From positions 1 to 20,768 of IMG/VR virus record IMGVR_UViG_3300010300_000154: a DNA stretch of 20,768 bases; one strand, given 5' to 3'. A program made the translations under genes and the position numbers. Under the pieces are notes generated by a model. The model saw only the letters and a list, made by a program, of their open reading frames with translations. It was not told where the DNA came from and did no database searches. This DNA comes from a virus. Below are positions 4,598 through 19,382 of this stretch, piece after piece. Each line of letters starts with the position of its first letter. Position 1 is the first letter of the stretch.

Positions 4598-5701
4598 ATG
4601 GGAGGAAAAGGAAAAGCACCACCACCGATTGACCCAGGTCAAGCAATGGGTGAGTATTTGTTTGGTCAGGACTTTAGGAGTTTTGGGGGCGTAACTGACC
4701 CTAGACTTCAAGAGCGTATCATTGGTGCGGAAGAACAGTTCCGTCCCCGGTATGCCGCCCTTGAGTTGCAGGACATTGGTACGTTTGCTCGTGGACTAGA
4801 GGCTGGAGAAGTTGCTGACCCTCGATTTACTGCTGCACAGGAGCGCGTCAGCGAGCTACAAGCACAACTTGCCCAGACCCCAGAGACTATTACTACTACT
4901 CAACCTGGCGGATTTCGGAGGGCAGGGAGGGAGGTAACAGAAGCCAACCCTGAATACGCAAGGCTTCAAGCCGAGATTGCCTCACAGCAACAGACCCTAG
5001 AGGGTCTATCTCCCACCATGATGCGTGAGGCTACCCCTGGTGTGTTTGACTTACTTGAGGAGCAAGCTCGCCGTGCATCAGAACTCCAACGTGAACAGCT
5101 ACAGCTTCAGCGTGAGGCTGATGTAGGTGCTATCCAAGAGTTCGCCCCGCAGGTTGTCTCTGCTTACCGTGCCGCTGACCCACGTAGTGCCGCCCTAGCT
5201 GATGCTGCTCAAGCACAAGCCATGAGGCTTTTTGGCGAGGCTGAGGGTCCACTATCCCCGGAACGCCGTAGAATGGCAGAGCAGGCTGCTCGTGCCGGTT
5301 CTTTGGCTCGTGGTCGTATCGGTGATGAAAGCTCTATAGCGGCTGAGTTACTTGGTCGTGAGCAGTTCAAGGCTGGTCTCCGCCAAGAGGCGAGACAAGC
5401 TGGTGCTGGTGCATTCGGACAACAACGTGCGATAGCGGGTGACATTGGTATGACCCTTCTTGGCCGTCCTTCTCAAGCTATTCAGCTTGGAGGTCAGACA
5501 CTAGGACAGGCTACCGGGCTTGCTGCTGGACCGATGGGTCCGCAACTATTTGACCCCAACGTAGGTATTAACCTTGCCCTTCAACAACGAGGGCAGGATA
5601 TTCAGTTCCAAGGTGCTAAGGCTCAAGCTCGTGGTGCTTTGATTGGTGGTCTCGCAGGTGGCATCGGAACAGGACTAAGCGGAACAAATTTATTTGGATA
5701 A
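4598..5701 (+). CDS. Probable internal virion (ejection) protein
   Basis: This gene encodes 367 residues starting MGGKGKAPPPIDPGQAMGEY. Residues about 75-185 are rich in Gln, Glu, Arg, Ala and Leu with heptad-like spacing and are probably coiled coil. Residues 190-280 are an Ala/Arg-rich helical region. The C-terminus (GGLAGGIGTGLSGTNLFG) is a glycine-zipper-like hydrophobic tail of the kind found in ejected core proteins that insert in the cell envelope. AAGGA sits 5 bases before the ATG. It is followed after 6 bases by another probable internal protein and then by the giant protein, matching the gp14/gp15/gp16 order of T7-like phages. There is no sequence motif that proves the role. Confidence 0.6.
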   Translation: MGGKGKAPPPIDPGQAMGEYLFGQDFRSFGGVTDPRLQERIIGAEEQFRPRYAALELQDIGTFARGLEAGEVADPRFTAAQERVSELQAQLAQTPETITTTQPGGFRRAGREVTEANPEYARLQAEIASQQQTLEGLSPTMMREATPGVFDLLEEQARRASELQREQLQLQREADVGAIQEFAPQVVSAYRAADPRSAALADAAQAQAMRLFGEAEGPLSPERRRMAEQAARAGSLARGRIGDESSIAAELLGREQFKAGLRQEARQAGAGAFGQQRAIAGDIGMTLLGRPSQAIQLGGQTLGQATGLAAGPMGPQLFDPNVGINLALQQRGQDIQFQGAKAQARGALIGGLAGGIGTGLSGTNLFG

Positions 5702-16430: not shown

Positions 16431-16661
16431 TTATAGTGAGTTCGTGGGTTCATCGTTAAGGACAGCAATCGCTTGGCGTAGCTGCTCAATCCTTTCGATA
16501 AACCTTTCCTTCTCCATCCTAAGACTTCTAATCTCTGTATGGGCAAAACTAAGCTCGTGTCTTAGGTTGGTCACCTCGGTCTCCAAGATGATGTTGTCTC
16601 GCTTGAGTCCGGTAACTTCTCGCTCAAGTCTATCGTGGTAATCAGTATTTCTATTTGTCAT
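16431..16661 (-). CDS. Small coiled-coil protein
   Basis: This gene encodes 76 residues. Residues 8-70 form one long charged helix with leucines at heptad spacing (REVTGLKRDNIILETEVTNL, then RHELSFAHTEIRSLRMEK), so a parallel coiled coil is likely. It ends PTNSL. The start overlaps the upstream gene's stop by 4 bases (ATGA). It could be an oligomerising partner of the small nuclease-like protein upstream; this is inference from coupling only. Confidence 0.65.
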   Translation of the reverse strand: MTNRNTDYHDRLEREVTGLKRDNIILETEVTNLRHELSFAHTEIRSLRMEKERFIERIEQLRQAIAVLNDEPTNSL

Positions 16662-17008
16662 GGCTTGATTATTTTGGTTAGTGGGAGCAGGATTCCCTTT
16701 GATGTATTTTCATCTCCGCCCAGTTTATCGGAACTAGTCCCAAGCAATGGACGGATAATGTCTTTTAATTTTTCTGTCTCAATCAGAATAAATAAATGCC
16801 CAATGTCGAAGCAGTAAAAGTCAGCCTTGGTTCTTGATATACCGGAAGGCTTACCCCTTGATTCGTATTCAATAAATAGATTACCGGTATCTTTGGCTTT
16901 GATGTCGGACTTCACCTCGATTGTTTTGTTATCGAGGATTTCACCGAGGGCTTTTTCTGATAGCATCCCTACAGCCAGGTCGTATTCAAAGTCAGATTTG
17001 TAGTCCAT
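16658..17008 (-). CDS. Small PD-(D/E)XK nuclease-like protein
   Basis: This gene encodes 116 residues. An N-terminal helix (DFEYDLAVGMLSEKALGEIL) is followed by TIEVKSDIKAKDTGN (29-43), where E31-x-K33 fits the core (D/E)XK. Residues 43-57 (NLFIEYESRGKPSGI) are a strand-loop frequent in small phage PD-(D/E)XK proteins. The length suits a resolvase or Vsr-like endonuclease domain. Its ATG comes 6 bases after the CCA end of the tRNA-like RNA and no Shine-Dalgarno is present, so 3' processing of that RNA would leave a near-leaderless message. The nuclease call is by pattern, not by a complete verified active site. Confidence 0.6.
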   Translation of the reverse strand: MDYKSDFEYDLAVGMLSEKALGEILDNKTIEVKSDIKAKDTGNLFIEYESRGKPSGISRTKADFYCFDIGHLFILIETEKLKDIIRPLLGTSSDKLGGDENTSKGILLPLTKIIKP

Positions 17009-17288
17009 GTTGATTGGTGGAGGTGGGAGGAATCGAACCTCCGTCCTCTGGCGACTGCATTACTTCGCAATCCTTAACCAGAGTCGATGACCTTGCACCC
17101 CCTGTTATATCCGTGACGGAAAGGATTCGACCTGTCCCGCCATTCTTGAATTGAACCCTGTCGTCCTTGCCAGCGTTTACACGTAGCAGGAGACGGACAG
17201 CTTTCTTCTCATCGCCAGCCCACTTGTAAGCGCGGAACTTCATGTCCCCCATCTCATCGTGGGTGTATTCGATTTGGTATTCCCTCAT
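16992..17288 (-). CDS. Small hypothetical protein whose 3' part runs through a tRNA-like RNA
   Basis: This gene encodes 98 residues. Its ATG overlaps the methyltransferase stop (ATGA), so it is translationally coupled. Residues 1-62 look like a normal small protein (MREYQIEYTHDEMGDMKFRA, then KKAVRLLLRVNAGKDD and GRILSVTDIT). Residues 63-92 are the translation of the tRNA-like RNA at 17015-17102; SPEDGGSIPPTST is the typical peptide read from a T-arm and CCA end. The frame then runs to 16992 and overlaps the next gene by 17 bases. The natural stop may have been lost when the RNA was acquired, or the protein may be made with this odd tail. Function unknown. Confidence 0.55.
   Translation of the reverse strand: MREYQIEYTHDEMGDMKFRAYKWAGDEKKAVRLLLRVNAGKDDRVQFKNGGTGRILSVTDITGGARSSTLVKDCEVMQSPEDGGSIPPTSTNQHGLQI
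17015..17102 (-). ncRNA. tmRNA-like / tRNA-like RNA with alanine identity pair
   Basis: This is an 88-base RNA. Acceptor strands GGGGGTG (17102-17096) and CACCTCC pair over 7 bp, with a G-U at the 3-70 position and A as discriminator, followed by an encoded CCA. G3-U70 is the identity element for alanyl-tRNA synthetase, used by tRNA-Ala and by tmRNA. The T-arm is GGAGG-TTCGATT-CCTCC, preceded by GGAC as in tmRNA. The 5' side reads GGTCATCGAC, close to the GG-x-TTCGAC of tmRNA. Between them CTCTGG pairs with CCAGAG, enclosing GATTGC/GCAGTC, a long P2-like hairpin. No normal anticodon arm fits and there is no mRNA-like domain. It is either a tmRNA reduced to its tRNA-like domain or a tmRNA-derived attachment site. 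Confidence 0.65.
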
Positions 17289-18592
17289 ACTACTCTTTGG
17301 ATAAGGGTAACGAAGGCTTTGGCTGCGGTTGCTGGGACGACTCCGTTTCCCAAGAGCCTAAGTCTGTCCACCCGACTGGAAGACCCATTAGTTGCTCGAC
17401 CCAGTCCGGGTTGAGTTTCCCTGTCGCCTTGCCGCAATGTCCGGCTATGTCCTCCTCTAGGTTCGCCTTCTTCCGATTCGCAAGTTGCTCCCTGTTCTCG
17501 TCCGTGATTGTTGGGTGAACCTTGTTGGCTCTTGGTGTCGGCCACGACTCTTGGTTCTTCCCATTCGTATTGGGGTTCGCTTGGTCTTGCAGGCCAACGT
17601 GTGCAACACGCTGTCCGAGGGTCTGCTTGGATGGGTTCGCTCGACTCGGCGGGACGGTTGCATTGCTGTCCTTCCAGTCTCGTGTCGTTGCTGTCGGCCA
17701 GTTCATCACTTCCTCCCTGAGATTCTTGCACCCGCCCTTCTTCTTGGCTTTTGCTAGTTTCTCTGGACTCCTCGCTGGTAGTACATCCATCGTGTTGGGG
17801 GTTGCCCAGTTCTTCTTCGCTTCCTCCGCTAGAATCTTGCCTCCCTTTTCGTTCGGTCTTGAGCCTGGATTGGCTGCCCTCGGTGTCGGCCAGTTCTCCG
17901 CATTGGCTTCCCTCTGTGCATCCTTGTACGCTTGACACATCAATGGGTCCACTTGCTCCCTTAGATTGCCGGGTCGTTGGCGATTCTTCCTTGCTCCGTT
18001 GGTCGCTTGCTTCTTCATCGCCTCGTAACTCCGTGACGGTAGACAATCCATAGTGTTGGGCGTACCCCAAGATAAAGACTCGCTTTCTTTGGTGAGGTGC
18101 GCCGACTTCACTCGCTGAGAATATTCCTGCCGTTGCTCGGTAACCCAAGCCTTCCAACTCTCCGAGGACATACTTGAGAACTGATTCTCCGTCTGCGGTT
18201 TTGGCGGAGATGATTCCTTCAACATTTTCGAGGAAAACAATTCGAGGTTTACAGTCTCGGATTCCGTTTGCGATGAAAGGGAAGAGGTGTCGTGGGTCTT
18301 CTGTTGCCTTACGTTTTCCAGCAGCCGAGAAAGGCTGGCACGGGAATCCCCCAGAGAGGATATCCACTTTGTGACGAAACCTTGTGTAAGGGAAGGTCTT
18401 AACGTCCGTGAACACAGGTGCTGCATCCAAGTATTCCGCTTCCATCTTTGCAACCAAGTTCGCGCAAGGGAATCCTTCCCTCTCCACGTAAGCGATTTCT
18501 CTGAGATTTGGGAGAACTCTTCTGAGTCCAAGCCCAATGCCTTCGTATCCTGAACAAAGGCTGAGGTGTGTAATTGTTTCGGTAGTATCCAC
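17285..18592 (-). CDS. dcm: Cytosine-5 DNA methyltransferase
   Basis: This gene encodes 435 residues from a GTG. The product transfers a methyl group from S-adenosylmethionine to cytosine C5 in DNA. Motif I is SLCSGYEGIG (11-20), motif IV GGFPCQPFS with catalytic C85, motif VI LENVEG (121-126), motif VIII HQRKRVFILG (167-176), motif IX RVDRLRLLGNG (407-417) and motif X VVPATAAKAF (418-427). In-frame TAA codons upstream leave GTG 18592 as the only start that keeps motif I. Residues about 190-400, where the target-recognition domain should be, are Ser/Glu/Gln/Gly-rich with very few hydrophobics and contain repeated A-D-T/S or G-N-P phrases. A second ORF covers the same DNA in another frame. There is no partner restriction enzyme next to it, so protection from host restriction is likely. 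Confidence 0.88.
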   Translation of the reverse strand: MDTTETITHLSLCSGYEGIGLGLRRVLPNLREIAYVEREGFPCANLVAKMEAEYLDAAPVFTDVKTFPYTRFRHKVDILSGGFPCQPFSAAGKRKATEDPRHLFPFIANGIRDCKPRIVFLENVEGIISAKTADGESVLKYVLGELEGLGYRATAGIFSASEVGAPHQRKRVFILGYAQHYGLSTVTELRGDEEASDQRSKEESPTTRQSKGASGPIDVSSVQGCTEGSQCGELADTEGSQSRLKTERKGRQDSSGGSEEELGNPQHDGCTTSEESRETSKSQEEGRVQESQGGSDELADSNDTRLEGQQCNRPAESSEPIQADPRTACCTRWPARPSEPQYEWEEPRVVADTKSQQGSPNNHGREQGATCESEEGEPRGGHSRTLRQGDRETQPGLGRATNGSSSRVDRLRLLGNGVVPATAAKAFVTLIQRVV

Positions 18593-18594
18593 AT
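17290..18594 (-). CDS. Overlapping second-frame ORF inside the methyltransferase gene (WxTP-repeat protein)
   Basis: This ORF encodes 434 residues on the same strand as the methyltransferase in a shifted frame. It starts at ATG 18594, two bases before the methyltransferase GTG (shared ATGTG), 4 bases after AAAGGA. The N-terminal third is Ser/Leu/Trp/Arg-rich (MWILPKQLHTSAFVQDTKAL). From residue 176 on, five W-x-T units occur at 176, 235, 263, 299 and 351 (WGTPNTMD, WPTPRAAN, WATPNTMD, WPTATTRD, WPTPRANK), followed by LNPDWVEQLMGLPVGWTDL (394-412). From memory, W-P-T-P-x-x-x-D and L-N-P-x-W-V-E-x-L-M-G phrases are common in proteins annotated near or as phage methyltransferases. It could be a second real protein, a frameshift-joined recognition domain, or an unexpressed shadow. 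Confidence 0.5.
   Translation of the reverse strand: MWILPKQLHTSAFVQDTKALGLDSEEFSQISEKSLTWRGKDSLARTWLQRWKRNTWMQHLCSRTLRPSLTQGFVTKWISSLGDSRASLSRLLENVRQQKTHDTSSLSSQTESETVNLELFSSKMLKESSPPKPQTENQFSSMSSESWKAWVTEQRQEYSQRVKSAHLTKESESLSWGTPNTMDCLPSRSYEAMKKQATNGARKNRQRPGNLREQVDPLMCQAYKDAQREANAENWPTPRAANPGSRPNEKGGKILAEEAKKNWATPNTMDVLPARSPEKLAKAKKKGGCKNLREEVMNWPTATTRDWKDSNATVPPSRANPSKQTLGQRVAHVGLQDQANPNTNGKNQESWPTPRANKVHPTITDENREQLANRKKANLEEDIAGHCGKATGKLNPDWVEQLMGLPVGWTDLGSWETESSQQPQPKPSLPLSKE
17777..17808 (-). repeat. Internal repeat copy in methyltransferase gene
   Basis: This 32-base unit matches 18038-18069 at 25 of 32 positions. It encodes LGNPQHDG in the methyltransferase frame and WATPNTMDVLPA in the second frame. 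Confidence 0.65.
18038..18069 (-). repeat. Internal repeat copy in methyltransferase gene
   Basis: This is the partner of 17777-17808. It encodes LGYAQHYG in the methyltransferase frame and WGTPNTMDCLPS in the second frame. Three further diverged units with the same core lie near 17885, 17690 and 17535. Confidence 0.65.
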
Positions 18595-18598
18595 TGTA

Positions 18599-18604
18599 TC
18601 CTTT
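18599..18604 (-). promoter_or_regulatory. Shared Shine-Dalgarno AAAGGA before ATGTG
   Basis: On the minus strand AAAGGA ends 4 bases before ATG 18594 (second-frame ORF) and 6 bases before GTG 18592 (methyltransferase). One site therefore serves two overlapping start codons. It is one of the few clear ribosome-binding sites among the leftward genes. Confidence 0.65.
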
Positions 18605-18605
18605 C

Positions 18606-19382
18606 TTATTTTATTACTGGGTTCATTCTCTTTTGCCAAAAAATCTTGGCACAAATTTTTGCGTTATCTATTCCCCACTTCATCTCGGCCGGTGTCCACT
18701 CTCGGTGGTGGTGTTGCTTAGTATCACAGTCAATGATTATACTTCGGCAACCGGGCAGGTAGTCCAGCTTGTGTTCCTTCATGAGCATGAATGATTCAAT
18801 CGCCAGTTGCTCGCAGTCCTTCGGGTAGGTCTTAGCCTTGCCCTTGGTATTCGTGCGGCACTTGTAGTCAGCTAGGAATAACTTGCCCTCGGCATCGTGT
18901 CCAATGAAGTCAACGCTTCCGGCTATCTTGATGCGGTTACAGGCGACCAGTCGCTCACAGGCTATGGGGCTGACATCGTTCTCCTCAATCCATGTAACGA
19001 ACGGCATCGCCCACATATCCCAGGGTGTCTCCTCTGGTGCGGCTTCGCCAAGCCATAGATGGTTGACCCATTGCTCAATACAATGGTGGACAGTCGTGCC
19101 GAACTCGGACGATGAAATGACATTGCCGGATATTGGATGCTCCCTTGTTCCGTACGTTAGCTGCTCAACGTCTTGCCATGCGAGGTAAGGCTTCTCTCTG
19201 GCAATCTCGGTTATCATCCTGGGCTTCCAGATTGAATCAATGAATGAATCCTTAACGATACCCAAGACAGTCGTAACAGATGGGTAAACCTTGGGTCCAG
19301 CTTTCTTAGCTTGGATAGGTGTTGATACATCAGCGTTGAAGATGGGTTCAGAAATATTTGTGCAGTCGTAGAAATGAGCCAT
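18606..19382 (-). CDS. PD-(D/E)XK exonuclease, RecB/Cas4-like
   Basis: This gene encodes 258 residues from ATG 19382. An N-terminal helical region with PSVTTVLGIV (34-43) and FGTTVHHCIEQWV (94-106) matches the G-x-x-x-H motif of RecB/Cas4-type nucleases. The core is IAGSVDFIG (153-161) with D158, and FLADYKCRT (169-177) with D172-x-K174, followed by a helix with Q192 (CEQLAIES). The product is expected to degrade one DNA strand to give ends for the ERF annealing protein. A TTG at 19430 in frame would read through a terminator hairpin and is rejected. The ATG directly follows that hairpin's U-tract and has no Shine-Dalgarno. The stop is 11 bases before the ATGTG of the methyltransferase pair. 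Confidence 0.8.
   Translation of the reverse strand: MAHFYDCTNISEPIFNADVSTPIQAKKAGPKVYPSVTTVLGIVKDSFIDSIWKPRMITEIAREKPYLAWQDVEQLTYGTREHPISGNVISSSEFGTTVHHCIEQWVNHLWLGEAAPEETPWDMWAMPFVTWIEENDVSPIACERLVACNRIKIAGSVDFIGHDAEGKLFLADYKCRTNTKGKAKTYPKDCEQLAIESFMLMKEHKLDYLPGCRSIIIDCDTKQHHHREWTPAEMKWGIDNAKICAKIFWQKRMNPVIK

Follow-up and report, generated by a model that had tools for sequence, protein, structure and literature searches.

The question raised by this locus is what kind of RNA is encoded by an 88-nt segment that ends as an alanine acceptor and has neither an anticodon arm nor a message domain, and what such an RNA would do for a phage. The segment, its encoded CCA included, lies on the minus strand from 17102 to 17015 of the window (the whole stretch of DNA analysed, an IMG/VR virus fragment of 20,768 bases). 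Read 5' to 3', its first half is GGGGGTG, CAAGGTCATCGAC, TCTGG, TTAAG, GATTGC, GAAGTAAT and GCAGTC, and its second half is G, CCAGA, GGAC, GGAGG TTCGATT CCTCC, CACCTCC, A and CCA. The acceptor stem is formed by the 5' strand GGGGGTG (17096-17102) and the 3' strand CACCTCC (17019-17025, with U70), as judged from the sequence, the pair counts and the relatives; 7 of 7 positions are paired, including G3-U70, and the stem is followed by the discriminator A73 and CCA (17015-17018), A73 being present in 41 of 41 unselected relatives. The D-loop segment CAAGGTCATCGAC (17083-17095) is conserved in the family and of the tmRNA type; it ends in TCGAC, a motif that corresponds to the SmpB-contact nucleotides G19-A20-C21 of Helicobacter pylori tmRNA (PMC2584231). 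The 5' arm of P2 (C20-G25; 17078-17083) pairs with a 3' arm made of CCAGA and the first G of GGAC (17046-17051), and the P2 pairs covary in relatives. The upper hairpin GATTGC-GAAGTAAT-GCAGTC (17053-17072) stands in place of the message domain and is shorter in relatives, often with a tetraloop cap. The 12-bp interrupted hairpin thus consists of six P2 pairs (C20-G57 counted) and six further pairs, with an internal loop between them. The GGAC linker (17043-17046), placed by the family alignment, lies 5' of the T-arm GGAGG-TTCGATT-CCTCC (17026-17042), which is perfectly paired and supported by Rfam and the pair counts. No anticodon arm is present.

The Rfam tmRNA model RF00023 scores this RNA at 56.6 bits (gathering threshold 47, E 5e-20) and covers it end to end, skipping 303 model positions, all of them in the message region. 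A covariance model termed R1, built from 26 unrelated phage RNAs with the window sequence left out, gives 60.9 bits (E 5e-12). ARAGORN called neither a tRNA nor a tmRNA on the window RNA. A descriptor that required nothing beyond the G3-U70/A73 acceptor and a T-arm matched once in the window and not at all in 300 Markov shuffles (6.2 Mb). The folding z-score is -3.3, and the minimum-energy structure places the arms differently; since energy folding alone yields this other structure, the proof of a real RNA is covariation and not fold energy. Chance resemblance, for which nothing but the short length can be cited, is all but ruled out by the covariation and the absence of matches in the shuffles.

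Among the criteria for tmRNA proper, the RNA meets that of an alanine acceptor (7-bp stem, G3-U70, A73) and that of a tRNA-like head above the Rfam gathering threshold. It fails those of a message domain with resume codon, tag frame and stop, and of a long P2 with pseudoknots, only a short hairpin lying between D-loop and T-arm. The criterion for a phage tmRNA of the 'TLD only' type, phage-encoded and barely more than a tRNA-like domain, is met. An ordinary tRNA was rejected because a cloverleaf with an anticodon arm is absent, ARAGORN reports none and Rfam prefers tmRNA. The acceptor piece of a permuted two-piece tmRNA was rejected because the 5' half comes before the 3' half and the hairpin closes both. 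A very short tag, for which the window loop offers GCG AAG TAA, is not conserved among relatives. The identification as a message-less tmRNA-like RNA is therefore held with high confidence. An earlier note, made without database searches, had described the 7-bp acceptor with G-U at 3-70, A discriminator, CCA, GGAC, TTCGATT T-loop, D-loop and 12-bp hairpin, and all of these held, on the minus strand, as did its statement that anticodon arm and mRNA-like domain are missing. The refutation set beforehand, that covariance models would see an ordinary tRNA or nothing, did not come about, the tmRNA model scoring above gathering without any tRNA call.

On the minus strand, the RNA is preceded by a gene at 17103-17288 (from tblastn and the ORF list) and followed by a 116-aa gene at 16658-17008, which starts 6 nt past the CCA and has a homologue in Phage C75C1. 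The upstream open reading frame, starting at 17288, formally continues through the RNA down to 16992. By tblastn, most relatives match only its first 61-62 residues, approximately up to the first base of the RNA, which places the RNA between two genes; the tail is probably accidental. A promoter scan around the RNA gave nothing useful, and a covariance-model search of the syntenic relative Phage C75C1 gave no match to a message-less RNA. Further along the minus strand, at 17285-18592 and 17290-18654, the window has two long overlapping frames of 435 and 454 aa. The former aligns over its full length to a DNA methyltransferase of C75C1; the latter, out of frame with it, also has a match to phrog_1008, a family of phage methyltransferases, as seen in the near-identical contig L099. 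Dual coding by these methyltransferase-like frames is a possibility.

Selection on the RNA was assessed in three sets of sequences. A first motif without the acceptor stem (TCGAC, 25-55 nt, GGACG..GGTTCGA.TCC) was scanned over unrelated phages, and those sequences were kept that were distinct, had the hairpin pairs and were neither a tRNA nor a full tmRNA. U70-C71-C72-A73 was found in 41/41 of them and G3-U70 in 40/41, neither being part of the motif. In a second motif GGGG and TCCA were fixed, and no constraint was placed on acceptor pairs 5-7, on T-stem pairs 1-3 or on any part of P2. Its sequences fall into 51 groups at less than 85% identity. Of these groups, 92% form acceptor pair 5 and 90% acceptor pair 6 (40-49% when shuffled), 100% form T-stem pairs 1-3, and 88-100% form the P2 pairs 1-5 (about 45% when shuffled). 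RNAalifold missed the acceptor on the raw MAFFT alignment, which has ragged 5' ends, and an equal-length subset was used instead. When 26 sequences were cleanly aligned, pairing was seen in 94.3% of cells, as against 68.6% after shuffling, with a covariation score of 0.62 as against 0.14; G3-U70 was invariant while pairs 4-7 varied on both sides. The third set, which combined the window RNA with those of its relatives and of named phages and contained no training sequence of R1, had 98.3% of cells paired, variation on both sides in 14 of 18 pairs, and G3-U70 in 10 of 10. Compensatory changes were thus found in the acceptor, P2 and T stems, so that the second refuting condition of the earlier note, a lack of compensatory conservation of the acceptor stem in relatives, did not arise either. 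A GCN...stop frame in the middle of the RNA is possible in only 16 of 113 relatives, and the short forms leave almost no room for one. Sequence and covariation show that the alanine identity (G3-U70, A73), the tmRNA D-loop and the T-arm are kept under selection, and that the message-less RNAs have no conserved tag frame.

The RNA is widespread among phages. In IMG/VR, motif scans detected the longer form as at least 161 distinct sequences, which occur at 208 loci and fall into 97 groups at less than 85% identity; a shorter, one-hairpin form of 58-70 nt accounts for at least 112 distinct sequences in 29 groups. Near-identical loci of the L008 type (L008, L009, L010, L034, L054, L058, L091, L093) fit the motif and have a 7-bp acceptor; they were excluded, as they look like protein-coding DNA for an acidic linker and probably fit by chance. 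The matches in PaMx31/SM1, S-SSM7 and Phabba were set aside as permuted or full tmRNAs. As separate observations, the Samunavirus phages SM1 (L267 2941-3361) and UF_RH6 (L269) of Pseudomonas carry unannotated permuted tmRNA candidates with the tag ANDTSFDVRLAA, and Synechococcus phage S-SSM7 (L268 1443-1794) carries a permuted candidate that overlaps the annotated hypothetical protein SSSM7_025. The GGGG motif, run over 84,980 genomes of bacteria and archaea, matched 34 times; about eight of these matches are true members, and the others are full tmRNAs that fit it by chance. When genomes related to two carriers were searched with the model, the order of the first yielded 1 match among 297 genomes and the phylum of the second 1 among 296, each time the centre genome itself. 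By these low numbers the RNA belongs mainly to phages and not to bacterial chromosomes.

The nearest neighbours of the RNA loci encode terminase, portal, prohead protease, helicase and similar virion or replication proteins (top 25 families per list). A recurring slot for the RNA between large genes, apparently those of the terminase large subunit and the portal, was observed in one phage group (L022, L161, L169, L173, L234). In Microbacterium phage Jerky and Exiguobacterium phage phiExGM16 the terminase-portal gap is present and no model match was found there. Relatives of the window phage at 59-72% DnaB identity have a form of 65-68 nt directly after dnaB, capped by tetraloops of the UNCG type; two relatives at about 45% DnaB identity have forms of 63-64 nt, one beside a tRNA-Arg and one within a group I intron. 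Among relatives, the RNA is thus retained while its genome position shifts. The intron (L112 10959-11247, contig IMGVR_UViG_3300038520_002359; 82 bits) holds a 63-nt message-less tmRNA in its P5 hairpin loop, and splicing would be predicted, from sequence alone, to free the RNA along with the intron.

Unannotated copies were also found in named phages. Those of Streptomyces phages LuckySocke (73.4 bits), GiJojo (73.4), pSt2308 (70.8) and BRock (69.3) lie at a syntenic spot in a tRNA cluster, after tRNA-Val, where pair 4:69 has changed from G-C to U-A and pair 5:68 from C-G to U-A with G3-U70 unchanged. Streptomyces phage Alone3, which shares with LuckySocke the laboratory host S. lividans, has a copy (L449 1187-1263; 52.5 bits) with mismatches in the T-stem. 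This copy resembles a hybrid of the BRock and LuckySocke types and could be decaying or recombinant. Pontimonas phage phiPsal1 has a copy at 5569-5647 (R1 64.7 bits, Rfam 54.6); the phage itself can no longer be obtained (PMC6106888). The announcement of BRock, which cites ARAGORN, describes this phage as virulent and without predicted lysogeny genes (PMC7453282); the blindness of this program to such RNAs would account for the missing annotation. That the RNA is an attachment-site remnant or a decayed ssrA left by integration is very improbable. The ssrA gene is a common integration site (PMC11915505); however, the RNA retains both of its gene ends, which covary, a tyrosine integrase is not seen in 29 of 38 carrier records, and BRock is virulent.

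A tRNA lies within 1 kb at 22 of 121 loci, and all five Streptomyces phages carry the RNA in tRNA clusters. The RNA might be a decoy for host defences that attack or sense tRNA or tmRNA, or might stand in as acceptor once tRNAs have been cleaved. This location of part of the family, and the lack of an anticodon, which would resist anticodon nucleases, speak for this; however, most loci are outside tRNA clusters, and the retained tmRNA D-loop and P2 would be superfluous in a generic tRNA decoy, so that the explanation is considered unlikely. Still less probable is an alanine donor or AlaRS trap acting off the ribosome, for instance for an enzyme that uses aminoacyl-tRNA. The invariance of G3-U70 and A73 would suit it, although no such enzyme is among the neighbour families (top 25 per list) and the tmRNA-specific D-loop would be unnecessary.

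The preferred reading, held at a probability of roughly 0.6, is that the RNA blocks trans-translation as a dead-end decoy, charged with alanine and making use of SmpB; its expression, charging and inhibitory effect are inferred. Host enzymes would trim the phage RNA, AlaRS would charge it with alanine, and host SmpB and EF-Tu would bring it to ribosomes stalled at mRNA ends, where it would accept the nascent chain and give no resume codon. The RNA would compete with host tmRNA and the ribosome would stay unrescued, the net outcome being inhibition of host trans-translation during infection. In H. pylori ssrA, charging depends on the G-U pair, contact with SmpB on the D-loop GAC and rescue on the resume codon, and mutants in the resume codon, the wobble pair or the SmpB site fail to sustain the essential rescue function (PMC2584231). 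As the phage RNA has the G-U pair and the D-loop GAC and no resume codon, it should stop in stalled ribosomes or hold SmpB. No SmpB was matched in 50 carrier records (about 2.5 Mb); a phage-supplied SmpB was therefore rejected, and host SmpB would have to serve. The reading is supported by the Rfam and R1 scores, the covariation in three sets, the invariant G3-U70, the absence of a tag, the lack of a phage SmpB, the retention at differing genome positions and the inhibition reported for the RNA of mycobacteriophage DS6A.

The strict conservation of the alanine identity suggests that the RNA probably acts in its charged form and does not simply soak up SmpB, an inference made without charging data. 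Against a charged poison, by analogy with the DS6A kind, the published inhibition needed no alanine charging and fits a sponge better. Data on expression, charging and inhibition exist for none of these RNAs except the DS6A kind, and a benefit to the phage from blocking rescue is not shown. Some phages need host tmRNA. An unlikely alternative is that of a helper, in which the Ala-charged, SmpB-bound head frees or primes stalled ribosomes without tagging and spares phage proteins degradation. A similar role has been suggested for CDS-less mitochondrial tmRNA, which persists with SmpB and is thought beneficial (PMC11915505), and the charging identity is strictly conserved; however, rescue in H. 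pylori requires the resume codon (PMC2584231) and the DS6A type was reported to be inhibitory (PMC11915505). A bolder version of the dead-end decoy, that many unrelated phage lineages use charged message-less tmRNAs and host SmpB to shut down trans-translation, with the strict conservation of G3-U70 showing that charging is essential, is given slightly less than even odds. If these RNAs do block trans-translation, phages would have a widespread means of attacking ribosome rescue that relies on RNA alone. The RNAs also make SmpB sponge versus charged poison a testable question.

Compared with known molecules, the phage RNA shares the AlaRS acceptor identity elements of tRNA-Ala, but has no D-arm hairpin or anticodon arm and is not called by ARAGORN. 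It shares with bacterial tmRNA (ssrA, RF00023) the G3-U70 acceptor, A73, D-loop, T-arm, a P2-like stem and the lack of an anticodon arm, but is without message domain, resume codon, tag and pseudoknots and measures about 58-95 nt instead of about 350. The CDS-less tmRNAs of mitochondria and Mallomonadaceae plastids (about 65 bp) are tag-less heads of similar size but organellar; those of mitochondria are mostly of permuted gene form and thought to act with organelle-targeted SmpB (PMC11915505). The 2025 tmRNA database, with 97,179 sequences, lists 79 phage tmRNAs and 9 tmRNAs of standard form without a tag frame, DS6A being the sole phage case described among the latter (PMC11915505). The literature searched does not report how broadly such RNAs are distributed, that they come in two size classes, that one copy is intron-borne, which named phages carry them or that their charging identity is invariant. 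The 'TLD only' tmRNA of DS6A (tmID 11587), or a similar molecule, is reported to inhibit E. coli tmRNA (PMC4131195, PMC11915505), by one account whether or not it was chargeable (PMC4131195); the original account is reportedly that of Mao et al. 2009. The proposal of the earlier note, a tag-less Ala-charged RNA acting against host trans-translation, is supported and fits the published DS6A case, remaining an inference for the window phage; it is corrected in that the idea was already in print and in that the distribution of the RNA extends far beyond a single phage. The DS6A and window RNAs are both phage-encoded, with little beyond the tRNA-like domain and no tag frame, and very likely of the same kind, filed as CDS-less tmRNA, as judged from the published description without an alignment to DS6A. 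DS6A is a single phage on record, whereas the present family extends over hundreds of diverse phages in two size classes.
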